Origin: a virus
Length of the DNA: 42,629 nt
Virus record (IMG/VR): IMGVR_UViG_3300025423_000038
Span: 1-42,629 of that record
Strand: one strand, 5' to 3'
Part shown: positions 2,825-42,527 of the stretch, one piece after another
How positions within the stretch are numbered: the first letter of the stretch is position 1
Layout of the letters: the number at the start of each line of letters is the position of its first letter
The notes under the pieces: generated by a model
What the model was told of the DNA's origin: nothing
Database searches by the model: none
Seen by the model: only the letters and a program-made list of their open reading frames with translations
Translations under genes and position numbers: made by a program

Positions 2825-4654
2825 ATGCCTCATATTCAACTCCAAAACTTTTCGGGGATTGTTCCTAGGACTGGTCCAACTCAGCTTGAAAATAATCAAG
2901 CACAAATAGCTAATAACGTAAGAGAAACTTCCAAAGAACTACGCTCTTGGAAAAAAGAATTATTTGAATATATACCTTCAAATTTAAACTCACAAACTGT
3001 TTATAAGTTATATAACGTAGTATCAGGATTATATAAATGGCTAGAGTGGTCTACTGATGTGGACGTTGTAGTTGGTCCTGTTGGTGACATTACTGAATCA
3101 AGAATTTACTACACTGGTGACAGTGTACCGAAAAAAACAAACTGGGCTATAGCCACTACATCTGGTACTGGAGCTCAACCATACCCAAACGCATATTTAA
3201 ACATGGGAGTATTAGCTCCTACAGCAGCACCGACATTAGTAAAATCTGGCGGATCAGGCACAGTCAAAGAAGATAGAGCATATATTTACACCAACATAAG
3301 TACATTTGGTGCTGTACAAGAAGAGTCTGCTCCAAGCCCTGCAACATCTATAAGTGCTGTTGAACCTGATGCCACAGTTACAGTATCTGGGTTTTCTAGT
3401 GTAGCAGTCAGCGGGTACAACATTACAAGCCGTAGAATCTATCGGTCTGTTGCAGGTACAAGCACTGTGTCGTATTTATTTGTGGCAGAGATTCCAGTAG
3501 CAACAACTAGTTATGCAGATTCAGTACTTGCCATCAATTTAGGTTCGTCATTAACTTCGTTGTATTTCACAGAACCACCGAGCACACTGCAAGGTATTGT
3601 CGCTATGGCGAACGGGATTTTAGCTGGGTTCACTGGAAATCAAGTATGGTTCTGTGAGCCATACCTACCGCATGCTTGGCCTGTAAATTACATGATGACG
3701 GTCAACGATGAGATTGTAGGACTTGGTGTATATGATAGCTCGGTAGTTGTGTTGACAAAACATCAACCCGTAGTTATTACGGGAACTTCTCCAGGCGGTA
3801 TGTCTCAAGTTAAACTCCCAATGATGCAACCCTGTGTTGCTAAAAAATCCATAACGACTGATCAGTATGGTGTACTCTATGCTTCACCTAACGGGCTGGT
3901 AAATATCGGAGAGGGGATTCAAGATGTTGTGACAACTGCACTATATACTCGTGAAGAATGGCAGGCACTGGTTCCAGCTACTTTTGTAGCGAAAGTTTAC
4001 AACAATTTATGGATTGGGTTCTATACAGCAGGTGGTACTACTCAGGCGATTGTTATTGCTCGTGGCGATGTACCACCACTGTTTACTCTTGACTATTCTG
4101 CTTCTGCTTTATTTATTGATCATCAGAACGCTAGTATTTATGCGGTATCTACTATTGACGGATTTATTTATAAGTTAGATGCTGACCCAAACAATAGTAC
4201 TTATTATGAATGGCTATCCAAAAAGTTTATATTACCTAACCCAATGAATTTTGCAGTTTGTAAGGTGATGGCGGACTATGATTACATTACTGATGGTAGT
4301 GCTTATGCTGCGTATATTGCTGCGTTGACTGCAGCGAACCAAGCGTTGTTTGCATCCGCAAGTGGTAATTTGATGAGTACTTTAAATAGCAACACTCTAA
4401 ACTCAATAGCAATAAATGGTTCAATTCTTTCTGATATCCCAGCTTCTGGGGAAACTACTAGAGTTATTAACATATTTGTTTATGCAGATGGGCAAGTTAT
4501 TTTTACAACTGGTGTTACTAGCCCAGAACCAATTCGCATGCCTGTAGCTACAAAAGCATATAACTACGAGATAAAGATATCAGGAAATGTACCTGTTCGT
4601 GGATTTGCTATGGCAACATCAATTGGTGAGTTAAGAGGAATGGTATATGGCTGA
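2825..4654 (+). CDS. Large structural protein, probable beta-rich head-tail or tail protein
   Basis: A 609-residue protein beginning with a segment (QNFSGIVPRTGPTQLENNQA) that recurs at the N-terminus of a family of phage structural proteins, in which residues become reorganised around N-QAQIANNV and ELRSWK. The rest is rich in short beta strands with Gly, Ser, Thr and Tyr and repeated SxxGxx turns, suggesting a multi-bladed beta structure. P22-like tail stabilisation proteins (gp10 type) have a comparable architecture and size, but I cannot show homology from sequence. It has a GGATGG ribosome binding site and overlaps the following small gene by 8 nt. No catalytic motif was seen. Confidence 0.6.
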   Translation: MPHIQLQNFSGIVPRTGPTQLENNQAQIANNVRETSKELRSWKKELFEYIPSNLNSQTVYKLYNVVSGLYKWLEWSTDVDVVVGPVGDITESRIYYTGDSVPKKTNWAIATTSGTGAQPYPNAYLNMGVLAPTAAPTLVKSGGSGTVKEDRAYIYTNISTFGAVQEESAPSPATSISAVEPDATVTVSGFSSVAVSGYNITSRRIYRSVAGTSTVSYLFVAEIPVATTSYADSVLAINLGSSLTSLYFTEPPSTLQGIVAMANGILAGFTGNQVWFCEPYLPHAWPVNYMMTVNDEIVGLGVYDSSVVVLTKHQPVVITGTSPGGMSQVKLPMMQPCVAKKSITTDQYGVLYASPNGLVNIGEGIQDVVTTALYTREEWQALVPATFVAKVYNNLWIGFYTAGGTTQAIVIARGDVPPLFTLDYSASALFIDHQNASIYAVSTIDGFIYKLDADPNNSTYYEWLSKKFILPNPMNFAVCKVMADYDYITDGSAYAAYIAALTAANQALFASASGNLMSTLNSNTLNSIAINGSILSDIPASGETTRVINIFVYADGQVIFTTGVTSPEPIRMPVATKAYNYEIKISGNVPVRGFAMATSIGELRGMVYG

Positions 4655-4862: not shown

Positions 4863-5284
4863 TGAGAACAACTATATATAACCAAGACGAAAGAATCTTA
4901 CCTTGGGTTGCTAAGAAATTAGGAGAAGATAGTTTTGATGGTGCTACAGGAATTGGTCTAGAAAAAGACGGTGAGTTAATTGCGGCTGTAGTTTTTAATA
5001 TGTATACAAAAGCGTCAATTTGTATGCACGTAGCCTCTGATGGTAGTAAGAATTGGCTGAACAAGGAGTTTCTGTTTAGGGCTTTCGCTTATCCGTTTAT
5101 TCAGTTAAAATGTAATAGAATCACAGCTCTCGTTCGTGTAGACAATATAGATGCTCAGATTTTTGATGAGAAACTAGGGTTTAAAGAAGAAGGTCTCATC
5201 CGTAAAGGGTCTGAAGACGGAACTGATATGATTTTATATGGTATGCTAAAAGAAGAATGCCGTTGGCTAGGAATTAAAATATGA
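4862..5284 (+). CDS. GNAT-like N-acetyltransferase
   Basis: A 140-residue protein following the GNAT order: GIGLEKDGELIAAVVFNMY (strands beta2-beta3), a loop replacing the classical acetyl-CoA Q/RxxGxG/A element around residues 58-72, ITALVRVDNIDAQIFDEKLGFKEEGLIRKG (alpha4-beta6, with the typical N-x-x-A-x-x-x-x-x-K-L-G-F-x-x-E-G pattern), and a final strand (TDMILYGML). GNAT proteins transfer an acetyl group from acetyl-CoA. Homologues recur among virion genes of podovirus-like phages, and the substrate there is unknown. The gene is translationally coupled on both sides (TAATG at the start, ATGA at the end). Confidence 0.7.
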   Translation: MRTTIYNQDERILPWVAKKLGEDSFDGATGIGLEKDGELIAAVVFNMYTKASICMHVASDGSKNWLNKEFLFRAFAYPFIQLKCNRITALVRVDNIDAQIFDEKLGFKEEGLIRKGSEDGTDMILYGMLKEECRWLGIKI

Positions 5285-6450
5285 AAATAAGTAATCATTT
5301 TGACATGCTCCCAGAACGAGCGTTTACTAAAAAACTATTTGGTTATTCCCCTGCGACTTTAGAAGGTAAAAGTTCTAGTTCTGCACCAGCTGCTGACCCA
5401 GGTATTGCCAAATCACAACAACAAATGGCTGATCTTGCTACGCAAGAGTATAATGACTTTAAAACAAATATTTGGCCCCAGTTACAACAACAAACACAAT
5501 CTCAAGTGGACATGTCAAATAAAGTCCAGCAACAACAATACGATACTACTCAAACACAAAATGATATAGCTGCTCAGCAGTATGCTCGCTATCAAGAAAA
5601 AGGTATTCCGATTCAAGATCAATTATATGATCAAGCTAGTACTGCGGGTAGCGATCAAGAACAAGAAGCCAAGGCATCACAAGCAATTGGTGATGTAAGA
5701 AGTCAAATGGACGCTGCTCAAGCTAGTAATGAAGCAAATATGAAATCTTATGGTGTTGATCCAACATCTGGTGCATTCCAAGGTCAAGCAAACGCTAATC
5801 AAATTATGGGGGCTGCTACTGGGGCTGCCGCTGCTACTCGTGCTCGTGACGCTGCTATTCAATTAGGTTGGGCGAAGAAGATGGATGCAGCTGGTATGGC
5901 TCAAGGTACCTTTGGTAATCAAGCATCGTCTACAGCTTTAGGTCTAAATGCAGGAAGTACATCACTAGCTTCAGGTGCTATGGGTACTAATGCAATTAAT
6001 GCGATGGGTAATAGTTACACTCAAGGTACTAATGCGGCAATGTCAGGATGGAACAATGTAGGTAACTTAGCTCTTGGTGCTACTAATGCGGCTAATAGTG
6101 CATGGGCTTCACAAAATGCTGCTAATGCTCAAAGCTCTTCTGGATTTGGCCAAGCAATCGGTGGACTTGCAGGTGCAGGAATTAATGCTTATGCAAAAAT
6201 GAATTCTCCAGCTGCAATATTAACAGGTTCTGATATTAGACTTAAAGAAAATATTGAGTTTATTGGATACTTACCAAGTGGATTACGTATTTATGAATAT
6301 GAATACAAACCAGAATTTAAAAATCATCCATTAGCAGGACATGGCAGATTCCGTGGAGTCATGGCTCATGAAGTTGAAACAGTTATTCCAGGAGCAGTAT
6401 TCGAGATGGATAATGGATATAAAGCAGTTGATTACTCAAAGGTGAATTAA
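5281..6450 (+). CDS. Virion protein with C-terminal S74 intramolecular chaperone
   Basis: A 389-residue protein. Residues 40-110 are Gln-rich and helical, residues 165-300 are Ala/Gly/Asn/Ser-rich repeats, and residues 317-389 form a peptidase S74 domain: S317-D-I-R-L-K322-E-N-I, then YEYEYKPEF, FRGVMAHEVE and NGYKAVDYSKV. In endosialidase-type chaperones the Ser and Lys five residues apart form the dyad that releases the chaperone after trimer folding, so cleavage is expected just before S317. S74 domains normally close tail fibres and spikes. Here the preceding part lacks beta-helix repeats and looks like an internal-virion or stalk protein. Start and end are coupled to neighbours (ATGA; the next ATG abuts the stop). 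Confidence 0.75.
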   Translation: MKISNHFDMLPERAFTKKLFGYSPATLEGKSSSSAPAADPGIAKSQQQMADLATQEYNDFKTNIWPQLQQQTQSQVDMSNKVQQQQYDTTQTQNDIAAQQYARYQEKGIPIQDQLYDQASTAGSDQEQEAKASQAIGDVRSQMDAAQASNEANMKSYGVDPTSGAFQGQANANQIMGAATGAAAATRARDAAIQLGWAKKMDAAGMAQGTFGNQASSTALGLNAGSTSLASGAMGTNAINAMGNSYTQGTNAAMSGWNNVGNLALGATNAANSAWASQNAANAQSSSGFGQAIGGLAGAGINAYAKMNSPAAILTGSDIRLKENIEFIGYLPSGLRIYEYEYKPEFKNHPLAGHGRFRGVMAHEVETVIPGAVFEMDNGYKAVDYSKVN

Positions 6451-8037: not shown

Positions 8038-11000
8038 ATGGCCAATATTTGGGATAAACTTGAGCAGCAAGTTGTTCAACCTAGCAAACAAGATATGCCG
8101 ACAGGTTCTATATGGGATAATCTTGAAACTAAAGCTCTAGGAATAGAAACTACAAATAAACCAGGGATTGTTTCTGATATTAAGCGTGGTACTGGGCAAG
8201 TTATATCATCTGTTGGGTCTACACTTAGAGACTTAGGTCCAGAAGAAACTGGTAAATCTATTGAAGAGTATGGTAATGAAATTACTCGTAAAAATCCATC
8301 TTCAATTAACTCTGTAAGTGAAGCATTAGAAAGTCCGTTTACTACAATCCGTGAATCTTTGGGAGAAGTAACCCCACAAGTTGTTGTATCTGGCGCTCTT
8401 GGTATATTAGGTGGTATTGGTGGTGGTGCAATCGGTTCTATGCTCGGCCCAGCAGGAGCTACAGCAGGAGCTATAGCAGGTAGAGCAGCAGCAATTGCAG
8501 CAGGAAGAAAAATCGGTGGCGCTGCAGCTGCGTTCGGTGGAAATTTACTTCAAGAATATGGCGGTATTAGATCAGACCAAAGAGAATCTGGTAATAACGA
8601 TATTGGCAGGGCTATTGCTGGTAGTGGTACTGCTGCACTTTTTGATACTGCTTTTGGTGCAGAAGCTTTTACTAATAAAGTTTTAGGTAAAGGTGCTAGT
8701 ATTCTTGAAAGAGAAGCTGGTAAAAAACTATTGCCCCATATAGCTAAACAAGGCGGTATTGGTCTTGCTGAAGAAGCTGGTACAGAAGCTTTACAAACAG
8801 GTATTGAAAGAGCAGCAGCTTTTAAAGAGTTAACAGGTGATGAGGCTTATAACGAATACGGATTGTCTGCCATTAAGGGTGGTATTGGTGGTGGAGTTAT
8901 CCGTGGCGGTACTGCAGCTATGGCAGGACAAAAGAGACCAGAGATTGCATCAGAGGAAGATGGTTTAAAATCTGCCATTAATGGAAATAACCCTCCAGAA
9001 GTAACTGGACCACCGCCACCATTAGTAGGTCCACAACCAGCAGCTCCTAACATAGGAGAAGGTCCTCCACTACCACCTAACCAACAAGTAGGCCCACAAC
9101 CAGCAGCTCCTAACATAGGAGAAGGTCCTCCACTACCACCTAGTCAACAAGTAGGTCCCCCAACTTCAGCACAAGTTGCTGCTTCTAATGCACAAGCTAA
9201 ACAAGAAGCTGAAGCCCAAAAAAAAGCTGAAGAACAAGCTGCTCATGATGCAGCAATGGAACAAACAAAACAACTGTTTAATGCACAACCAAATGAAGAT
9301 GGCGGGCTAGATATTGCAGGTAAACGCATTTATAATATGCCACTTGCAAAAGTGTTTTTAGGTGAACTATATAAGACAATAAATAAATACAGTGATGTTG
9401 ATAAAACTTTAGCATCTGCTGCTGTAAAATCTGGTGTAGTAACCATTGACGATAAAGCTAGTGCAAAAAGTTTAATTGGTAAAATAGGTAGCTTTTTTGA
9501 TAAGTATCAACTACATCATGTAGAAACTATAGAAGAAGCTGCTAATACTGTAGATAAACAAATAGGTAGACTTAGCGGACCAAGTGCTTTAAAAGAAGCA
9601 ACTATACTTAATAATTTTTATAAAAATTTAACAGGGGCAGTAGCTCCATCTTTTGCCGTTATAGAAAAGCAAGCAGAAGAATCTTTAAAACCTAAAGAAA
9701 CAAAGAAAACGAAGCAAACCTCAAAAGGAGAATCAAATGGACAGCAAACAGAACAACAACCAGAACAACAGCAAGTGCCTGCCAGGGTGGGAGATGTACC
9801 AGTCACGGGAGGAGCAACAGAAACTGGAAATGGAGACCTTGGGCTTTTACAATCCGAGAGCCTTCGACCCATCGGGACAGGAAGTAACACTGGAGTCTCG
9901 AACAGCCAGCAAGATGTCGGAACAGGAGAAACTGGACCACGGGATAATGCCAGTGGAGCCGTCACCAGTACTAATGATGATCAGAAAAAGACGCAAAGGG
10001 TAATTCATAACTTTGATGAAACACCTTCAGGAGAAATAACGAATGAACAACCTACCGCAGAATCCACTACAGGAACAACAAATGTCCCCGCAGTTGTCTC
10101 AGGAAGAAATACAGGATCAAATCCATCGAGGCAAATTGAAATTCCTCCAAATGCTCCTCCAGCGATTAGAGAAGCCATTGAAAAAGGACCTCAGCGATGG
10201 AATGAGTTGACCGAACAAGAAGTTCCATTTGAAACACTACATCCTAATTTACAATTAGTTTGGTTGCAAGCTTATGCTGATAACAATATGAGCCTTGATC
10301 TTGTTGATAATATTATTTCTGAAAACGAAGAAACAGATATTACTTTTGATCAGTTACTGCCATTAATTATTGAAAAAATTGTTACTCGTTCTGGACAGAT
10401 GAGATCTTTTGACGTTCCTAAAATTAGAAATTTATTATTTTTATTACTAGGTTCTACTTCAAAAGAAAGAGATTTAAATCATGAACAACTAGTATTAGCA
10501 ACTGAACTTAATAACATACCTGCTGTGGATGATAAAGGTAAACCAGTCCTTAACCCAAGAACCAAAAAACCTTTTACATCTCAAGAAGCAATGGAAAAAG
10601 CACTGAAACAAGTTGAAAATTGGGAAGCTAAAGCAAAAACTTTTTATGCAGATAATGCCGCAGAGATTGACAGGATACTTCCGATTATTGCTAAAGAACA
10701 ATATGGTATTGATGGGATTGAGAGATTAAAAGAAGCTTTAGTTCAAGCTATGGAGTATAACAAGAGCAAAAGGCCTTCTGCACTAATCGCTCAAAATGAA
10801 ATTGGGGAGCTTGTAAATGACATCGAAGTAGAAACTTCAGCTCTTAACGATGAAGGCGAAGTTAAAAATACTGGTATTAATAATAGTGATGCTCGCCATG
10901 GTAGATTGGAATCGAGAGATGAAGGAAAAATAGCCACTGATGAGTATTTAAAATTAAGAGACGCTATAGATAAAAAAGATGAAGAAATAGCTGATGCAGA

Positions 11001-14000
11001 AGAAAACGGTGACTATGATAAAGTTGACGGTTTACTAGAAGCTAGAAACAAATTAGAAGAAAAACAAAATAAACTTCTAGCACAAGTTGCCAAGGAACAT
11101 AAAAAGAAAGCAGTTAGTAATTTGTCTGCTGCTAACCAAGAAAAAGTTTATGACGAACAAGCTGAGAGGGAAGATAATGCCGTTCAAGAGCAAAGCACAG
11201 ATGAAGGAAATGTTCGCAAATCAACCGAAAGTGGCAAAGAAGTGGGCAAAGGAAACGCCAAACCTGAAAAACCTGCCAGAACACGTAAAGCCAAAACAGA
11301 AAAAAATCAAGTAACAGTAGTAAAAACTGAAAAGCCAAAGAAGATTACTTTAAAGTCAGTTAAAGATGCTATTAAAGAAGCATACATACAAGGTGATATT
11401 AGTAGTGAACAAGAGTATGACTTAGGTCTTTTAATTAAGAATAAGGGTTTATCTGCGTCTGAACTCATGGTAGTTTTCCAAAGAGCCAAAGATGAGAAAT
11501 CAGGAACTAGTAATGTTCCAGTAAAAAATAATTCTCTTGCAAGCGCTTTGAAAGCAGCTGGTATTGACAAACATGCAGGGGATGGAAAGAACGGTCCGAC
11601 TACAGTATTATCAGATGAGTCTCGTACCATCGAAGGTGAAGCTCGTGTTGTGTCTTTAACTGATAAACAAACTGTTTTACTTACTGATCAAACAAATAAA
11701 CTTACAGACGGACAAAACAAGCGGTTAGAAGAGTTTTATAAAGAAAAACGTGGCACACCTGAGTTTATTGCTAGAGTTAAAGCCGATGTTCTTACTTTTG
11801 CTAATGATGGTGCTAAGGCTGTTGCTGGTGCTATCCGTGACATTATTAGACAGATTGCCAATGGAGTTATGTCTGTTGCAATTATTTTTAACCCTGGGTT
11901 TGTATCTGATCCAATTAAATTTGCAGTACCTACATACGAAACTCGTACTGAACAAGTAGTGGAGAAAGCTCCTGCGGAAGCTGCTAAGAATATGTCTCCT
12001 GCTGCACAACGAGCATATGAAGTTATTTTCCCTGCAATTAAAGAAAATTTAGCTAAGTCAAACAAGTTCTTTATTGTGACTGACAAGCCAACGGCTACAC
12101 AATTTATTTTTAACCCTGATGGTACATTGTTGTTTCAGAGTAAAGTATTAGTTGGTAAGAGCGTAGGGGATTTCCTCAAAGGCAATAATAACATTGATGC
12201 CAACAAAATTACTCCTGCTGGGCTTATGACTTTAGTTATGAGACAGAATACTTCAAGTACTAAGGGGTATGACTTTAATACTGTATTCGGTGTTGAAGGT
12301 GTAGATAACGGTGAGAAGTACTTTACTACCTTAATGCACTCAGTATGGCTCAATGAGAAAGATGCAGCTCAACGTCAGAAAGCACTCTCAGAAGCAGGTC
12401 CTGGCAATTCAAGATATTCGTTTGGTTGTATCAATACAGATAAAGACACATTTGGTACTCTACTAAAAGACCATAAAGAACAGATGAATGGCGCTATGCT
12501 ATTTGTTGTTCCTGATAACCAAGAAAGTGTAATGGAGTTTGTTAATGGTAAGGCTGTGTTTGAGAAAGACATTACTCGCCAAGGTATAACACCAAAGACA
12601 AAAACTGTTGTAGAAAAGACTACTCCTAAAGGTGCAGAAGCATCAAAAGGTACGCAACTTGCGGGCAAAGAAGAAAATCCTGGAGCTCAATACAGTAAGA
12701 CTGCCAAGGTTACAAACCCAGAAACAGCATCTGTAATTAACAAAGAGCTCAAGGCTTTTATTGGTGATATTAGTGCTGCAAGATTAGAAGTAGTGCAAAG
12801 CGTTGAAGATCTTCCAGATCATATACAAAACATTGTTAGTGAAAAACAAAAGCTCGATGGAAGCATAGTACAAGCTTTAGTGTATAAAAATAAAGCATAT
12901 ATGATTGCTAACAATATTGAAAAAGGTACTGCTCGTGCTGTATTTATGCATGAAATTGGTTCGCATCTTGGTCTTGAAAGATTATTATCCCCTAAACAAT
13001 ATACAAAACTTGTTGACACACTTAGTAGTTGGGCATCAAAAAATGATGGCTCTATTGAAAGTGAATTAGCTTTAAAAGCATCTATTAGAGCATTAGAATC
13101 CAATGAAGTAGGAGATAAGCGTACTAAAGAATTCGTAGCTTACTTTATTGAAGAAGCTGTTAACGCTGGAATTAACCCAACAGCAGTGGACTATAAAACA
13201 AACACAGGTAGATGGTTTATTGCTTTATGGGCTGCATTTAAAAATGCAATCCGCAAGTTAGGATTTAACCCTGATAAGATGAATGCCAAAGATGTAGTTA
13301 ACTTGGCTTATGGTGCTGCTCGCTTAGAAGTTCATGGTAACTGGCATGGTACAGCTAATGCTTTTAGAAAGTTTAACCATGATTACATGGGTAGTGGAGA
13401 AGGTAATCAAGCATTTGGTTGGGGTACATACTTAGCTCAACGACTAGGTATTGGCAGAGATTATATGCACATTGCTATTAAGGCGAATACGCAAGATTAC
13501 AGTATTAGTTATAAAGGTAAAGACATAGAATCATTGTTAGTAACATCTGATAGAACTGGTGGTTTTTCACAAGCTTTAATAGCATTAAGATTTGAGCTTT
13601 CAATGAACCCAAAACTCGATATAAATACTGCAATAAAAGAAGCTATTGATACAGCTAAAGATACTTTAGCTAGTAATAAAGGAGAACTACAAGAGTATAA
13701 AAATGGATTCGATGCAAACCTTTATGCAGATGAAGATACTAGAGCTTATATGATGAATGAACTAGAGTATTTAATCAGTGAGTTAGAAGACAGTATAGAT
13801 ACAAAAGAAAGAATTATAGAACAGCTAAAAAAATTAGATCCTAAAGATATTAATATCATTCCTTATATGCGCCCAAAGGGTTATTTATTAAGAGTAGATA
13901 CTAATGTAAAAAATGAAGAGTTACTTGATTTAGATAAACCATTGAGCCAGCAGTCTGCGCTTGTTAAAAAAGCACTTAAAAAAATACCTCAAGCAGAATA

Positions 14001-17000
14001 TGCTGATGATGCGTGGACTGGTAAGCAATTTTATGATTTTTTAGCAAAAGATTTGTTTGGTAATAGGCCAGTTAAAACAAAAGCAGACAAAATGGGAGAT
14101 ATTAAAGCTGCTTCTATGTTGTTAGATTCTGTTGGTATTAAAGGAAATTTATATTTAGATCAACCTAGCCGTGATGTAAATGCTCCAAGGGGATTACAAA
14201 CTCGTAATAAAGTAATATTTAATGACGAAAATATTTTTAAGATTGCTACTTTACCTCAAGCTTCTATAGATGATATTCAATTTTCTGTAGCTAGACCAAT
14301 TAGTGCAATCCGTGAAGGTGCTCAAAAGAGAATTGATTCATTACCCCCTGCGTATAGAGGTCCTGTACATGCTATCTTTGATACGATTGAAGACATAGCC
14401 AAAAAGGGTGCAATAATGGCTTCGTTTACTGAAGACTTGGCATCTGTGGCTAAGAAGTACATTCCATCTGTTGTAGAGTATGTTCGTTTGATGAAAGAGC
14501 GTTCTGCTATTAAGACTATGCGTGAACGTCGTGTAGATGAGATTTTGACTGAGTATCAGAGTTTAGATAAGTCTGTTAAGGGTACTGGAGCAGGAACTAT
14601 TAATGCGTTCTTGATGAAAGCTACTATGGAAGGTAAGTGGGCATATCAACCTTCATGGCTTAAAGATCCTGTAACAATTGACCCAGAAATGAAAAAACAG
14701 CTTGATGCGTTAATTGCCAAAGACAAAAAAGCTGGTGATTTAGTTAAAAAAGTATTTGAACATGGGTTTACTGACTTAACAGATATGAAGCAGTCTATCC
14801 AAACAACTGTGTCTACAGAGTATGATGCATTAATTAAACAAGCAGAAGCTGAAGAAGGCAACGAAAAAGAAGTAGCTGACTTACAAAAGAAAAAAGCTGA
14901 TGCGTTAAGAGAGTATCGTAGTCTTTTAGGTATTCAAGCAAATCTTCCGTATGCTCCATTAAAGCGTTTTGGTAACTATGTAGTTGTTGGTAAATCAGAT
15001 GCGTATTTAGAAGCTGAGAAACAAAATGATCGTGCTCTTATTACTAAATTAGAAAAAGATGGTAATGAGTATTTTGTTCAGTTTGCTGAGACATGGGCAG
15101 AGGCTAAAGCGATTTCTCGTAGTCAAGAAGGTAAGTATGCTTTAGTTGAACCGTTTGAAAAAGATATGGCTCAACGTGCCATGTACGGTGGTAAAGATGT
15201 AAATGATGTGTTTGAAAGATTACGTACACTAGCAGATAACTCATTTGAAGGTGGAAGCGACAAAGCTAAAAAAGCTGTTGACAGCCTGTTAGTAAATTTA
15301 AAACTTTCATTGCTATCTCAACACTCTGCTCGTCAATCAGAAAATCACCGTAGAAATATTGCAGGTGCTGAAGAAGATATGATGCGTTCTTTTGCTACAC
15401 AAGGTAAGGCTAATGCTCACTTTATATCCTCATTACATAACACTGACAAGATATACGATCAACTTCGTGAAATGAAAAAAGAAGCAGATGCCTCTACAAC
15501 TGGTCGTGGCGAGCGTCGTAGGTATTACAATGAGTTTATGAAACGTCACTCAATGGGGTTCAACTACCAAGCTAACCCACTTATGGATAAAGCACTTGGC
15601 ATAACTTCATTGTGGATGCTGCTCAGTAGTCCTGCTCACTTCTTACAAAATGCTACTCAGCCGTTTATGATGTCTATGCCTGTTATTGCAGGTAAGCACG
15701 GTGAAGGTAAGACATTTAAAGCTATGCTACAAGCATATAAAGAACTTGGTTCAATTATTGCTGCTGATGGTTTGAATGAGAAGAGTTACGCTAAGTTACC
15801 AGCTGATGTAAGAGAAGCCATTGAAACATTAGTTAATTCAGGCCGTATTGATATTAGCTTGGAATCTGACTTGGGGAGTTGGAAATCTGATGAGTCTAAG
15901 AATGTAGCAAGTCTTGCCGTTGAAAAGCTTCGTAAAATATCGCAGGATATTGAATCTATTAACCGTGTAGTAACTGCAGTAGCTGCGTATCGTTTAGAAA
16001 AACAAGCGGGTGCAAGTCAAGAAAAAGCTGTTGCTTATGCTGATCAGATTATTTTGGATACACATGGCGATTATTCGGGATTCAACGCTCCAAGATTTAC
16101 TCGTCAAGGGTTTGGTCGTTTGATAACTCAGTTTAGAAAGTTTCAGTTAATTCAGATCAGTTTGATTGCAAAATTAGGACATCAAGCATTTAAAGGTGCA
16201 AGTCCAGCTGAGAGAGCAATAGGAAGAAAAGCACTAGCGTTTACATTAGGTCATACATTTGCTGCGGCTGGACTTATGGGTATGCCTGGGTTTGCTGCGA
16301 TTGCATGGATTATTGGTAAAGCGTTTGGAGATGATGACGAACCTGATAATCCAGAAGCAACACTGCGTAAGATGATAGGTGATGATGCACTTGCTGATTT
16401 ACTACTAAAAGGTATTCCGAAACTTGCGGGGGTTGATTTATCAGGTAAGCTAGGTATGGGTCAGATGTTATCTTTATTGCCATATACAGAACTTGATTTA
16501 ACTCGTGATGGGTATGCTCGTGCAGTAACTGCTGCAATGGGTCCATTTATTGGTGGATTAGCACCTAAAGTAATTGACGGTATTGGGCTTATAATGCAAG
16601 GTAATTACTACAAAGGGTTAGAAGCAATTGCTCCTAAAGGTATGGCTGATGTACTTAAAGCAGTAGAATTAGCTAACAAAGGTATTGCTCAAAGAAACGG
16701 TGACGTAGTATTATCAGCAGATGACATTGGTGTACTTGATGTAATGAGTCAAGCTTTAGGTTTGCCGACTAACACAATTACTGATAAACAGTTTGTTCGT
16801 AATGCAGAGTATCAATTTGATAAGTTTTATAAAGAACGTAGTACTGATCTTAAGACTGATTATGTTAAGGCATTCCGTGAGGGTGATTCAGAAACGATGG
16901 CAGAGATTAGACAAAAGTGGGAACAGACTCAGATTGCCAGAGTTAGAAATGGTGAGAAACGTCAGCCGATTTCAGAGTTGTTTAGAGCTCCGCAAGAGCA

Positions 17001-17073
17001 AACAAAAAGACAGAATGCCATAAAAGGTGGTGTAAAAAAACCAAGCTTGGCATCAGGTATAACAGAGCGTTAA
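8038..17073 (+). CDS. Giant large polyvalent protein (L,D-transpeptidase-like, HExxxH zincin-like and ART-PolyVal-like domains)
   Basis: A 3,011-residue protein, probably carried in the virion and ejected with DNA. In order: two IWDxLE motifs (residues 4-9 and 25-30); a Gly/Ala hydrophobic segment (about 121-165); proline-rich tandem repeats (331-372); long Gln/Glu/Lys linkers (540-720, 950-1,180); an L,D-transpeptidase-like domain (about 1,340-1,500) with TPAG, H1434 and the S1461-F-G-C1464 nucleophile motif; an HEIGSH motif (H1638, E1639, H1643); an ADP-ribosyltransferase-like domain with WHGT (H1770), GSGEGNQAFGWGTYLA (Y1798) and YLLRVD; long helices; and a C-terminal region with LWMLLSSPAHFLQNATQ (about 2,530) and a hydrophobic segment near 2,730-2,760. 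These modules match the polyvalent proteins described for phages and conjugative elements. The domains could modify peptidoglycan and host proteins on entry. Activities are inferred from motifs only. Confidence 0.85.
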   Translation: MANIWDKLEQQVVQPSKQDMPTGSIWDNLETKALGIETTNKPGIVSDIKRGTGQVISSVGSTLRDLGPEETGKSIEEYGNEITRKNPSSINSVSEALESPFTTIRESLGEVTPQVVVSGALGILGGIGGGAIGSMLGPAGATAGAIAGRAAAIAAGRKIGGAAAAFGGNLLQEYGGIRSDQRESGNNDIGRAIAGSGTAALFDTAFGAEAFTNKVLGKGASILEREAGKKLLPHIAKQGGIGLAEEAGTEALQTGIERAAAFKELTGDEAYNEYGLSAIKGGIGGGVIRGGTAAMAGQKRPEIASEEDGLKSAINGNNPPEVTGPPPPLVGPQPAAPNIGEGPPLPPNQQVGPQPAAPNIGEGPPLPPSQQVGPPTSAQVAASNAQAKQEAEAQKKAEEQAAHDAAMEQTKQLFNAQPNEDGGLDIAGKRIYNMPLAKVFLGELYKTINKYSDVDKTLASAAVKSGVVTIDDKASAKSLIGKIGSFFDKYQLHHVETIEEAANTVDKQIGRLSGPSALKEATILNNFYKNLTGAVAPSFAVIEKQAEESLKPKETKKTKQTSKGESNGQQTEQQPEQQQVPARVGDVPVTGGATETGNGDLGLLQSESLRPIGTGSNTGVSNSQQDVGTGETGPRDNASGAVTSTNDDQKKTQRVIHNFDETPSGEITNEQPTAESTTGTTNVPAVVSGRNTGSNPSRQIEIPPNAPPAIREAIEKGPQRWNELTEQEVPFETLHPNLQLVWLQAYADNNMSLDLVDNIISENEETDITFDQLLPLIIEKIVTRSGQMRSFDVPKIRNLLFLLLGSTSKERDLNHEQLVLATELNNIPAVDDKGKPVLNPRTKKPFTSQEAMEKALKQVENWEAKAKTFYADNAAEIDRILPIIAKEQYGIDGIERLKEALVQAMEYNKSKRPSALIAQNEIGELVNDIEVETSALNDEGEVKNTGINNSDARHGRLESRDEGKIATDEYLKLRDAIDKKDEEIADAEENGDYDKVDGLLEARNKLEEKQNKLLAQVAKEHKKKAVSNLSAANQEKVYDEQAEREDNAVQEQSTDEGNVRKSTESGKEVGKGNAKPEKPARTRKAKTEKNQVTVVKTEKPKKITLKSVKDAIKEAYIQGDISSEQEYDLGLLIKNKGLSASELMVVFQRAKDEKSGTSNVPVKNNSLASALKAAGIDKHAGDGKNGPTTVLSDESRTIEGEARVVSLTDKQTVLLTDQTNKLTDGQNKRLEEFYKEKRGTPEFIARVKADVLTFANDGAKAVAGAIRDIIRQIANGVMSVAIIFNPGFVSDPIKFAVPTYETRTEQVVEKAPAEAAKNMSPAAQRAYEVIFPAIKENLAKSNKFFIVTDKPTATQFIFNPDGTLLFQSKVLVGKSVGDFLKGNNNIDANKITPAGLMTLVMRQNTSSTKGYDFNTVFGVEGVDNGEKYFTTLMHSVWLNEKDAAQRQKALSEAGPGNSRYSFGCINTDKDTFGTLLKDHKEQMNGAMLFVVPDNQESVMEFVNGKAVFEKDITRQGITPKTKTVVEKTTPKGAEASKGTQLAGKEENPGAQYSKTAKVTNPETASVINKELKAFIGDISAARLEVVQSVEDLPDHIQNIVSEKQKLDGSIVQALVYKNKAYMIANNIEKGTARAVFMHEIGSHLGLERLLSPKQYTKLVDTLSSWASKNDGSIESELALKASIRALESNEVGDKRTKEFVAYFIEEAVNAGINPTAVDYKTNTGRWFIALWAAFKNAIRKLGFNPDKMNAKDVVNLAYGAARLEVHGNWHGTANAFRKFNHDYMGSGEGNQAFGWGTYLAQRLGIGRDYMHIAIKANTQDYSISYKGKDIESLLVTSDRTGGFSQALIALRFELSMNPKLDINTAIKEAIDTAKDTLASNKGELQEYKNGFDANLYADEDTRAYMMNELEYLISELEDSIDTKERIIEQLKKLDPKDINIIPYMRPKGYLLRVDTNVKNEELLDLDKPLSQQSALVKKALKKIPQAEYADDAWTGKQFYDFLAKDLFGNRPVKTKADKMGDIKAASMLLDSVGIKGNLYLDQPSRDVNAPRGLQTRNKVIFNDENIFKIATLPQASIDDIQFSVARPISAIREGAQKRIDSLPPAYRGPVHAIFDTIEDIAKKGAIMASFTEDLASVAKKYIPSVVEYVRLMKERSAIKTMRERRVDEILTEYQSLDKSVKGTGAGTINAFLMKATMEGKWAYQPSWLKDPVTIDPEMKKQLDALIAKDKKAGDLVKKVFEHGFTDLTDMKQSIQTTVSTEYDALIKQAEAEEGNEKEVADLQKKKADALREYRSLLGIQANLPYAPLKRFGNYVVVGKSDAYLEAEKQNDRALITKLEKDGNEYFVQFAETWAEAKAISRSQEGKYALVEPFEKDMAQRAMYGGKDVNDVFERLRTLADNSFEGGSDKAKKAVDSLLVNLKLSLLSQHSARQSENHRRNIAGAEEDMMRSFATQGKANAHFISSLHNTDKIYDQLREMKKEADASTTGRGERRRYYNEFMKRHSMGFNYQANPLMDKALGITSLWMLLSSPAHFLQNATQPFMMSMPVIAGKHGEGKTFKAMLQAYKELGSIIAADGLNEKSYAKLPADVREAIETLVNSGRIDISLESDLGSWKSDESKNVASLAVEKLRKISQDIESINRVVTAVAAYRLEKQAGASQEKAVAYADQIILDTHGDYSGFNAPRFTRQGFGRLITQFRKFQLIQISLIAKLGHQAFKGASPAERAIGRKALAFTLGHTFAAAGLMGMPGFAAIAWIIGKAFGDDDEPDNPEATLRKMIGDDALADLLLKGIPKLAGVDLSGKLGMGQMLSLLPYTELDLTRDGYARAVTAAMGPFIGGLAPKVIDGIGLIMQGNYYKGLEAIAPKGMADVLKAVELANKGIAQRNGDVVLSADDIGVLDVMSQALGLPTNTITDKQFVRNAEYQFDKFYKERSTDLKTDYVKAFREGDSETMAEIRQKWEQTQIARVRNGEKRQPISELFRAPQEQTKRQNAIKGGVKKPSLASGITER
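9028..9153 (+). repeat. 63-bp tandem repeat (2 copies) in the giant protein gene
   Basis: Two adjacent 63-nt units (9,028-9,090 and 9,091-9,153) encode the same 21 residues, starting GPQPAAPNIGEG and ending PPLPP[N/S]QQV, followed by the start of a third (GGTCCCCCA). Only a few bases differ between copies. The unit is proline-rich and probably a flexible spacer. Copy number may vary between relatives. Confidence 0.9.
9737..10003 (+). CDS. Candidate overprinted gene inside the giant protein gene
   Basis: An 88-residue open frame, shifted relative to the giant protein frame, lies wholly inside it. Its ATG has an excellent ribosome binding site, AAGGAG at 9,725-9,730 with 6 nt spacing. The product looks like a real protein: a short Gln/Asn-rich start, then charged and aromatic segments (GWEMYQSREEQQKLEMETLG, FYNPRAFDPSGQEVTLESRT) and a basic tail (MIRKRRKG). 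In the giant frame the same bases encode low-complexity Gly/Thr/Ser linker, and the stretch is visibly richer in G and C than its surroundings, as expected if the second frame is the constrained one. I do not recognise the family. Confidence 0.55.
   Translation: MDSKQNNNQNNSKCLPGWEMYQSREEQQKLEMETLGFYNPRAFDPSGQEVTLESRTASKMSEQEKLDHGIMPVEPSPVLMMIRKRRKG
11177..11314 (+). CDS. Overprinted small conserved phage protein (MPFKSKAQ family) inside the giant protein gene
   Basis: A 45-residue protein starting MPFKSKAQ, continuing with MFANQPKVAKKWAKETPN and LKNLPEHVKPK. This start and the pattern F..P..A..W..ETPN.K.LP.....K are recalled from a short phage protein family that normally has its own gene. 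Here it sits in a different frame inside the giant polyvalent gene. The start is preceded by GAGAGGGAAG, with 5-8 nt spacing. The host frame encodes a Glu/Lys linker here. The open frame extends further upstream to 11,087, but the added residues do not fit the family, so the ATG at 11,177 is preferred. Function unknown. Confidence 0.75.
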   Translation: MPFKSKAQMKEMFANQPKVAKKWAKETPNLKNLPEHVKPKQKKIK

Positions 17074-40707: not shown

Positions 40708-41163
40708 GATTTGTGACCTTTCTTTGGTGAGTTTTGGGGTGGATAATACAGAGATAATTGCTAGAGATAAATAGGAGCCTTATAAACAAAGGGTCTCAGG
40801 TAATTATCTCTAAATCGTTTTTTCGTTTAGGCGACCCCCGTATATAGAGATATGTAATGTATGCCATGTGCAAATACAAACACACACGAACACGTTCTCT
40901 ATATCTCTCTATACTATATATTAATAGATAAATAGATAATTAGATAATTACAGACAGCAAAGCACCTGTTTATAAGGGGGTTGTATTTATCTCTGGTAAT
41001 TATCTCTAAATGGAACAAGAGAACAGAGATAAATACAATACTGCACTATTATGGTAAGCCTAATTGATGGTTTAGGTAGGTTGGCGAATCCCCCTCGTGT
41101 TCACGACCATTGCCTACTGTTAGAAGAGGGGTTGGCAGTCCCTCTAATTGGAATAACTATGCC
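40708..41163. other. Repeat-rich AT-rich intergenic region, candidate origin or operator array
   Basis: There is no convincing gene in this 456-nt gap. It holds at least seven copies of an AGAGATAA-type motif in both orientations: 40,750, 40,763, 40,801-40,811 (reverse), 40,985-40,994 (reverse), 40,997-41,007 (reverse) and 41,025, with weaker copies near 40,847 and 40,901. A 17-mer GGTAATTATCTCTAAAT occurs at 40,799-40,815 and 40,995-41,011. TTGTATTTATCTCTG (40,981-40,995) and its exact reverse complement (41,024-41,038) form a 15-bp inverted repeat. CCTTATAAAC (40,778-40,787) has its reverse complement at 40,968-40,977. An 8-nt tandem AT-rich unit (AATAGATA twice, then ATTAGATA) lies at 40,923-40,946. 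Iterons beside an AT-rich element resemble a replication origin. Confidence 0.7.
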
Positions 41164-41424
41164 TTATCTTTTCTTTGGCATAACAGGGCGAGATAGAACA
41201 TACTTATTGTCTCTATTCTTTTGTCCGAATGTGCGAGCCATCTCATACACACCTGCACAGTTTGTCATTCGAGTTGATGGGGGCAAGCCCCCTTGATGCC
41301 TAGCACCATCATGCCCACCTTTATACTTCGGTGCATCGGGACTAAAATCCCAAACCTTTTGCACTACTGTTGGATAGTGCGACATTGTTCCCTTCGGAAC
41401 AGTATGAACCTTTTTAATTTTCAT
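41164..41424 (-). CDS. Small hypothetical protein downstream of the hammerhead ribozyme
   Basis: The ATG at 41,424 has GGAGGG 5-6 nt upstream and gives 86 residues; a longer frame to 41,469 would run through the ribozyme and is rejected. Product: MKIKKVHTVPKGTMSHYPTV at the start, then VWDFSPDAPKYKGGHDGARH, with a basic C-terminus (NRDNKYVLSRPVMPKKR). It looks soluble and basic, with conserved-looking Gly/His/Asp turns, and may bind nucleic acid. The family is not recognised. Its mRNA 5' end would be set by ribozyme cleavage 17 nt before the start codon. Confidence 0.6.
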   Translation of the reverse strand: MKIKKVHTVPKGTMSHYPTVVQKVWDFSPDAPKYKGGHDGARHQGGLPPSTRMTNCAGVYEMARTFGQKNRDNKYVLSRPVMPKKR

Positions 41425-41435
41425 AAACCCTCCAT

Positions 41436-41485
41436 GTGATAGACCCCCGTAGGGGTTTCGGCTCATCAAGCCTCATCAGTATCAC
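41436..41485 (-). ncRNA. Type I hammerhead ribozyme
   Basis: A complete hammerhead on the minus strand. Reading 5'-3' in RNA: stem I strand GUGAUA (41,485-41,480); core CUGAUGA (41,479-41,473); stem II GGCU / AGCC with loop UGAUG (41,472-41,460); core GAA (41,459-41,457); stem III ACCCC / GGGGU closed by the stable UACG tetraloop (41,456-41,443); C17 (41,442), the cleavage site; then UAUCAC (41,441-41,436), which pairs perfectly with GUGAUA. All invariant core bases are present, A15.1-U16.1 included, and stem I is open, hence type I. The 3' product would begin UAUCAC, immediately before the GGAGGG site of the next gene. The upstream stop is 11 nt before it. The predicted stem I is only 6 bp and the loop I-loop II contact is not evident. 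Confidence 0.94.
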
Positions 41486-41496
41486 TGATATACAAC

Positions 41497-41919
41497 TTAC
41501 GCAACAACTTCGCCAGTGCCTTCAGCCTTAACAACTGATTGAACAACTTGCTTGACGATATCGTATACATAAGCCTTAGTGCCTTTTAATTCCTTACCGC
41601 TATTACGCACGACATAATCCACTTGAGTGCATAGTGCGATAAAGTCAGCCTTTTTCATTGGACCACTTGCATCCACTGAAACAGATAGATACGGCTGAGC
41701 AGACTTCGCAACTAACTGACTGACAATGTCACGAGCCGCAGGGCGATACATACCATTAGCGATTTGTTCCTGATAGATTGTGTAACCTATGTTAGAACGG
41801 CTTGCACTAGAACCTTTTGCTATGGTTAAAGCGATTGAACCAGTCTTAACTACGCCAGTCTTAGAAACTGACATTGTGAAGATATCTTTGTTGAATACTG
41901 CTAATTGATTGTTTGACAT
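41497..41919 (-). CDS. Hypothetical protein, first gene of the leftward transcript
   Basis: A 140-residue protein with an AAAGGG site 8 nt before the ATG. Starts MSNNQLAVFNKDIFTMSVSK, has a Ser-rich ALTIAKGSSASRSNIGYTIY segment, and two helical parts (KKADFIALCTQVDYVVRNSG; TKAYVYDIVKQVVQSVVKAE). It seems soluble and balanced in charge. The family is not recognised. It is the promoter-proximal gene of the leftward unit, behind a leader with boxA-like sites and a terminator, and ahead of the hammerhead. An early regulatory or host-takeover role would fit the position but is a guess. Confidence 0.6.
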   Translation of the reverse strand: MSNNQLAVFNKDIFTMSVSKTGVVKTGSIALTIAKGSSASRSNIGYTIYQEQIANGMYRPAARDIVSQLVAKSAQPYLSVSVDASGPMKKADFIALCTQVDYVVRNSGKELKGTKAYVYDIVKQVVQSVVKAEGTGEVVA

Positions 41920-42389: not shown

Positions 42390-42408
42390 AATTGTTAAAG
42401 AGAGGATG
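42390..42408 (-). promoter_or_regulatory. boxA-like antitermination site, copy 2
   Basis: The 19-mer AATTGTTAAAGAGAGGATG is the plus-strand form of an RNA element that contains CTCTTTAACAATT, identical over 13 nt to the boxA of E. coli rRNA operons as I recall it. boxA RNA binds NusB with ribosomal protein S10 and prevents premature termination. This copy lies after the long inverted repeat, about 400 nt before the leader terminator. Confidence 0.65.
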
Positions 42409-42424
42409 ATTACAACCTCACGCC

Positions 42425-42509
42425 TAGTGAATTAAATGTTTTGATACTATCGTTAGACTGTTCCCCCTAATGATGGAAGAAAATCAGAGCCGATAAGTTT
42501 AATTCACTA
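42425..42509 (-). repeat. 12-bp perfect inverted repeat in the leader
   Basis: TAGTGAATTAAA (42,425-42,436) is the exact reverse complement of TTTAATTCACTA (42,498-42,509). In RNA it would form a 12-bp stem enclosing 61 nt. The stem sits between the two boxA-like copies, which recalls the boxA and stem-loop arrangement of rRNA leaders and of phage antitermination sites. Confidence 0.7.
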
Positions 42510-42527
42510 ATTGTTAAAGAGAGGATG
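42509..42527 (-). promoter_or_regulatory. boxA-like antitermination site, copy 1
   Basis: An identical 19-mer copy of the site at 42,390-42,408. It begins only a few nucleotides after the predicted transcription start (about 42,533) and is preceded by a short palindrome GATGCTTGCATC (42,524-42,535 on the minus strand), placed like a boxB or operator. The spacing between copies is 119 nt. Confidence 0.65.

Follow-up and report, generated by a model that had tools for sequence, protein, structure and literature searches.

The window analysed here comes from a phage in an environmental sample and spans an entire IMG/VR virus record (42,629 bases). On its minus strand, a hammerhead ribozyme sits between co-directional phage genes, as do the phage intercistronic hammerheads reported earlier (PMC3088659). 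A sequence-only reading of this DNA had described the element, at 41,485-41,436 (minus strand), as a complete type I hammerhead, and inspection base by base bore this out. The RNA reads GUGAUA-CUGAUGA-GGCU-UGAUG-AGCC-GAA-ACCCC-UACG-GGGGU-C-UAUCAC, with stems I, II and III of 6, 4 and 5 pairs, all 15 of them Watson-Crick, and with the core elements C3UGANGA9, G12AA14, A15.1-U16.1 and H17 all present. Stems II and III are closed and stem I is open, which gives the type I arrangement. The elements of the locus, in the direction of transcription, are as follows.

41497..41919, minus strand: upstream gene, 140 aa, with its stop codon at 41499-41497, 11 nt before stem I
41474..41490, minus strand: competing hairpin UAUCAGU/ACUGAUG, which would tie up stem I along with some of the core
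41486, minus strand: conserved A2.7, preceding the stem I 5' strand
41436..41485, minus strand: type I hammerhead ribozyme, stem I opening to the flanking mRNA
41480..41485, minus strand: stem I 5' strand GUGAUA, partner 41441-41436
41473..41479, minus strand: catalytic core CUGAUGA (C3-A9), read from the sequence
41460..41472, minus strand: stem II, GGCU (41472-41469) with AGCC (41463-41460), and loop UGAUG, the family motif U-N-A
41457..41459, minus strand: catalytic core GAA (G12-A14), read from the sequence
41443..41456, minus strand: stem III, ACCCC (41456-41452) with GGGGU (41447-41443), including A15.1-U16.1, and UACG tetraloop
41442, minus strand: C17, with predicted cleavage between 41442 and 41441, positioned by the hammerhead rule
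41436..41441, minus strand: stem I 3' strand UAUCAC, predicted 5'-OH end of the downstream message
41428..41433, minus strand: Shine-Dalgarno sequence GGAGGG, 2 nt past stem I
41164..41424, minus strand: downstream gene, 86 aa, AUG at 41424

The cut site given in the sequence-only reading, between 41,442 and 41,441, is correct by the hammerhead rule, and its account of the surroundings agrees with the map: the two genes are co-directional, the stop codon of the first lies 11 nt upstream of stem I, and the predicted new 5' end falls 17 nt ahead of where the second gene starts, beside the Shine-Dalgarno sequence GGAGGG. The predicted post-cleavage leader is UAUCACAUGGAGGGUUU (17 nt), followed by the AUG at 41424. 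Neither the upstream 140-aa protein nor the downstream 86-aa protein has a PHROG or Pfam family match. The upstream gene follows a 700-nt leader, and it is plausible that it heads an early operon.

The core pattern CTGATGAGN{8,14}CGAAAC has one match in the window, and 100 shuffles yielded none. A general hammerhead descriptor, covering core and stems, gave a single match in the window; 40 Mb simulated to the same dinucleotide composition contained no match. On these two results, a chance origin of the window hammerhead was rejected.

A covarying hammerhead family between stop and start codons

Searching IMG/VR with the pattern CTGATGAGN{7,13}CGAAACN{8,12}GTC returned at least 132 distinct matches. 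Among the matches listed, stems II and III are present in 108; stem I is present as well in 105 of the 132, and these represent hammerheads of one design. The pattern itself dictates the bases of the core, pair 1 of stem II and pairs 1 and 2 of stem III. Among the matches listed, stem I is exactly 6 bp long in 91 of the 108 and is followed by a mismatch in which A's are conserved, pairing being 0.92 at pair 6 and 0.09 at pair 7, as compared to about 0.3 at later positions; 85% have A2.7, about 70% have G2.6-C1.6 and 76% have A1.7, and loop II has the form U-N-A-N-N. None of these features of stem I, its border and loop II is imposed by the search pattern. The window copy carries the 6-bp stem I, A2.7, G2.6-C1.6, A1.7 and the U-N-A loop II; A2.7, A1.7 and this loop would be compatible with a tertiary contact.

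The stems of the family covary. In a gapless alignment of 34 members, double changes occupy 135 cells as compared to 35 in shuffled controls, and covariation amounts to 0.704 versus 0.129, a signal that was lost when the partners were slid. In stem I, all six pairs change on both sides. Although 99.8% of the stem cells in this alignment are paired, that figure is partly selected, because the rows were pre-filtered for at least 4, 3 and 4 pairs in stems I, II and III; the 105 of 132 raw matches that pass are the fairer test. The sequence-only reading had held that relatives lacking conserved pairing and core bases would speak against the ribozyme, and the strongly covarying family conserves both.

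A hammerhead covariance model had also been suggested as a check on the window. Our family model R1, built from 34 seed sequences that include the window copy, scored that copy at 70.3 bits, with the next best window site at 11.2, and neither R1 nor the descriptor found a second ribozyme in the window. In contrast, Rfam gave no match in the window at gathering scores, its hammerhead models remaining below their cut-offs (24.5 of 56.3 bits for RAGATH-1-hammerhead, RF03152; 22.5 of 48.5 for Hammerhead_3, RF00008). The family loci tested likewise all fell below the Rfam gathering cut-offs, with sub-threshold matches to Hammerhead_1 (RF00163). RF00163, RF00008 and RF03152 have the same catalytic core as the family. 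Being missed by Rfam at its cut-offs, the family is probably under-annotated.

The position of the family members relative to genes is consistent. When any frame that opens with ATG and encodes 40 aa or more is counted as a gene, a start codon lies within 60 nt past the cut in 80 of 100 members (median 26 nt; among the matches listed), as compared to 28% for random same-strand positions and 9% for the opposite strand, and the cut-to-start distances of the matches listed cluster at 20-39 nt. On the other side, for 75 of 105 matches listed, the best upstream frame has its stop codon between -20 and +10 nt of stem I; 20 of those 75 stops are the UGA of the core, which necessarily ends any frame entering it in that way. 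The downstream genes are small and varied. Some start regions have a Shine-Dalgarno sequence and others, many of them A/T-rich, have none, which makes it likely that several host groups are involved. Legionella, a Burkholderiales bin and an Aliivibrio bin are among the named contigs whose match was confirmed.

In several members, the ribozymes form arrays within single operons, with nine copies in 4.3 kb in G045, six or seven in G049, five each in G052 and G061, and nine in L130. The copies of an array sit between successive genes, differ in sequence and follow the gene boundaries, and they are not repeats. The window phage has one copy only, as opposed to the several copies that flank genes in other members. 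Searches for cultured-phage relatives of two other ribozyme-rich operons, similar to those for the window, found none. In one contig (L100:4218-4290), a second hammerhead-like core (CTGATGAGCGCTGAATGCGCGAAACAC) directly follows the full one, possibly as a tandem pair. The nine-copy contig L130 (1-5798), binned as Aliivibrio sp., has one gene in common with Flavobacterium phages, and this shared gene makes the bin label doubtful.

Through the same gene we reached a cultured member of the family. Flavobacterium phage elemoA_7-9A (MT497017.1) matches the family model at 52.8 bits, its ribozyme being located between QLF85238 and QLF85236, and each of the 68 elemo records found contains the ribozyme region. 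The two strands of stem II are GACU/AGUC in elemoA, GGUU/AACC in elemoC_14-1A and GACU/AACC in elemoE_10-3D, so that the isolates show compensatory changes at two pairs, whereas elemoE_10-3D has two mismatches. Given these mismatches, some copies may tolerate or suffer a loss of function. The elemo phages (host Flavobacterium sp. BAL314) thus offer natural variants with compensated and with broken stem II, which, together with the consistent placement of the family, make the function of a phage hammerhead directly testable. The annotated ORF QLF85237 opposite the elemo ribozyme (L239:5994-6101) is probably not a gene.

Within the lineage of the window phage itself, the element is isolated. Two other IMG/VR contigs only encode both flanking proteins, identical in protein sequence, and in the one of these two that was read the ribozyme is identical to the window copy. 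Among cultured phages, we found neither homologues of the flanking proteins nor DNA relatives of the ribozyme region. Of 37 records whose DNA polymerase is related (48-64% identical), not one matches the family model, and a looser core pattern, applied to 10 of those 37, gave one match, without room for a proper stem II. The absence from all 37 polymerase relatives points to an element that is recent or patchy in this lineage, and because of this isolated occurrence the use of the ribozyme in this particular phage cannot be tested by conservation.

Proposed cleavage between cistrons and competing explanations

Hammerheads between phage or prophage genes were described by Perreault et al. (2011), who proposed a role in the processing of long transcripts (PMC3088659). 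Their systems comprise the Agrobacterium ardA triple array, Clostridium scindens, Azorhizobium, PaP3 and Bcep176; prophage intergenic hammerheads cleave in vitro, and the Agrobacterium array does so in E. coli as well (PMC3088659). The HHphage hammerhead of haloviruses HF1 and HF2 lies 13 nt upstream of the start codon in an early-gene transcript, and a transcript 5' end has been mapped to no more than 3 nt from its site of cleavage (PMC3088659). The core of HHphage is a variant one and its host is archaeal, whereas the window copy has the consensus core; both lie shortly upstream of a start codon. The hammerheads of the 2011 set are likewise intergenic, several of them sometimes flanking single genes, but they span all three types (I, II and III) and differ in their settings, whereas the family presented here is a single type I design, distinguished by a fixed 6-bp stem I and a fixed stop-to-start placement when compared with those shown there (PMC3088659). 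The single window copy is therefore a further example of the phage intercistronic hammerheads already described, and the view of the sequence-only reading that its use is unusual has to be given up, as the same arrangement recurs in many phages and was outlined in 2011 (PMC3088659). It is the uniform design of the family and its dense arrays that deserve more attention than the single copy. The function of bacterial and phage hammerheads has been a standing question since 2011. In the open-access literature searched, we found no newer paper on phage hammerheads.

The most economical reading is that cis cleavage separates the two cistrons, and we consider it probable that the window hammerhead cuts the polycistronic phage RNA in this manner, uncoupling upstream and downstream genes in decay and translation. 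By analogy with the hammerhead class, the RNA would be cut in cis after C17 in the intercistronic gap, probably while it is being transcribed or shortly afterwards. Reading frame and stop codon of the upstream message would stay complete, and its 3' end would consist of the hairpins of stems II and III and a 2',3'-cyclic phosphate, an end that should be an obstacle to 3' exonucleases. On the downstream message, a 5'-OH would be followed by a leader of 17 nt that contains the Shine-Dalgarno sequence. Such separate ends and leaders are what would uncouple the cistrons, with presumed effects on message stability and translation. A comparable product is known from the glmS ribozyme, which cleaves itself within a bacterial 5' leader and likewise yields a 5'-OH message; it has a different fold and needs glucosamine-6-phosphate, whereas no ligand is suggested for the window hammerhead. 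For the family as a whole, we tentatively suggest, with rather less than even confidence, that phages of several lineages share one ribozyme module, set directly against the stop codon of one gene, with 20-40 nt of leader remaining before the next. Whole operons would then be turned into separate 5'-OH messages by RNA catalysis alone, a protein-free route to monocistronic mRNAs that would avoid 5'-monophosphate-dependent decay.

An alternative view places the main effect on translation of the downstream gene: the uncut stem I would block the 30S subunit at the Shine-Dalgarno sequence, and the cut would let the 6-bp stem fall apart and free the ribosome site. The short distances in the window, with 2 nt from stem I to GGAGGG and 17 nt from cut to AUG, agree with this view, as does the clustering of the family's cut-to-start distances at 20-39 nt (matches listed), near the upstream reach of the 30S footprint. 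However, many family members have A/T-rich start regions devoid of a Shine-Dalgarno sequence, and at a median spacing of 26 nt most start sites are clear of stem I. We regard translational control as rather unlikely to be the main role, while it and the cistron-separating cleavage are not mutually exclusive. A related proposal would make the ribozyme a switch, kept off by the hairpin UAUCAGU/ACUGAUG for as long as neither a terminating ribosome nor a factor has opened that hairpin. When the ribozyme is folded with its flanks, this hairpin indeed forms the minimum-energy local structure in place of the hammerhead, being more stable in silico by about 2 kcal/mol, or by 4.4 with longer flanks on both sides, in energies that exclude tertiary contacts; moreover, its 5' arm would be reachable by a ribosome at the stop codon. 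The energy gap between hairpin and hammerhead in the window is average for the family (family median 4.0). Across the family, however, pairing between upstream flank and core is no better than with shuffled flanks. As such pairing is not enriched, an off switch was rejected as a family feature and the switch reading was not adopted for the window, where we give it a small chance.

That the window hammerhead might be an inactive relic or a chance look-alike would fit its absence from the DNA-polymerase relatives of the phage and the competing fold favoured in silico. Against this stand the lack of any match in 40 Mb of simulated sequence, the intact core bases and 15 pairs, and the presence of the peripheral features of the family (A2.7, G2.6-C1.6, A1.7 and the U-N-A loop), which together leave this explanation very improbable. 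Hammerheads of viroids and retrozymes act in circularisation, ligation or mobility, and the several copies found in some phages could release gene-length pieces, as a role of this kind in place of mRNA processing would have it. Yet the window phage has a single copy, the copies of other members differ in sequence and are set by gene boundaries instead of being repeats, and spliced or circular products were sought and not found by Perreault et al. (PMC3088659), so that this role is barely credible here. Cleavage that separates the cistrons is the reading that we retain.

Leader, repeats and plus-strand genes

The 700-nt leader before gene 1 contains two exact copies of a 19-nt repeat (42390-42408 and 42509-42527, minus strand). 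Within them, TCTCTTTAACAA (42392-42403 and 42511-42522, minus strand) is one mismatch from GCTCTTTAACAA, which we took to be the rrn boxA core in our search; equally many boxA-like matches occurred in 7 of 100 shuffles. The boxA-like repeats suggest Nus-dependent antitermination of the early transcript. Between the leader and gene 1, a terminator-like hairpin is followed by a T-rich run (41996-41971, minus strand), as would be expected if antitermination controls the operon. Past the downstream gene, a non-coding cluster of direct and inverted repeats of the TAATTATCTCTAAAT type occupies 40750-41011. A plus-strand gene block contains a 3011-aa reading frame (8038-17073), together with genes for an internal virion protein (2825-4654) and for a virion structural protein (5281-6450).
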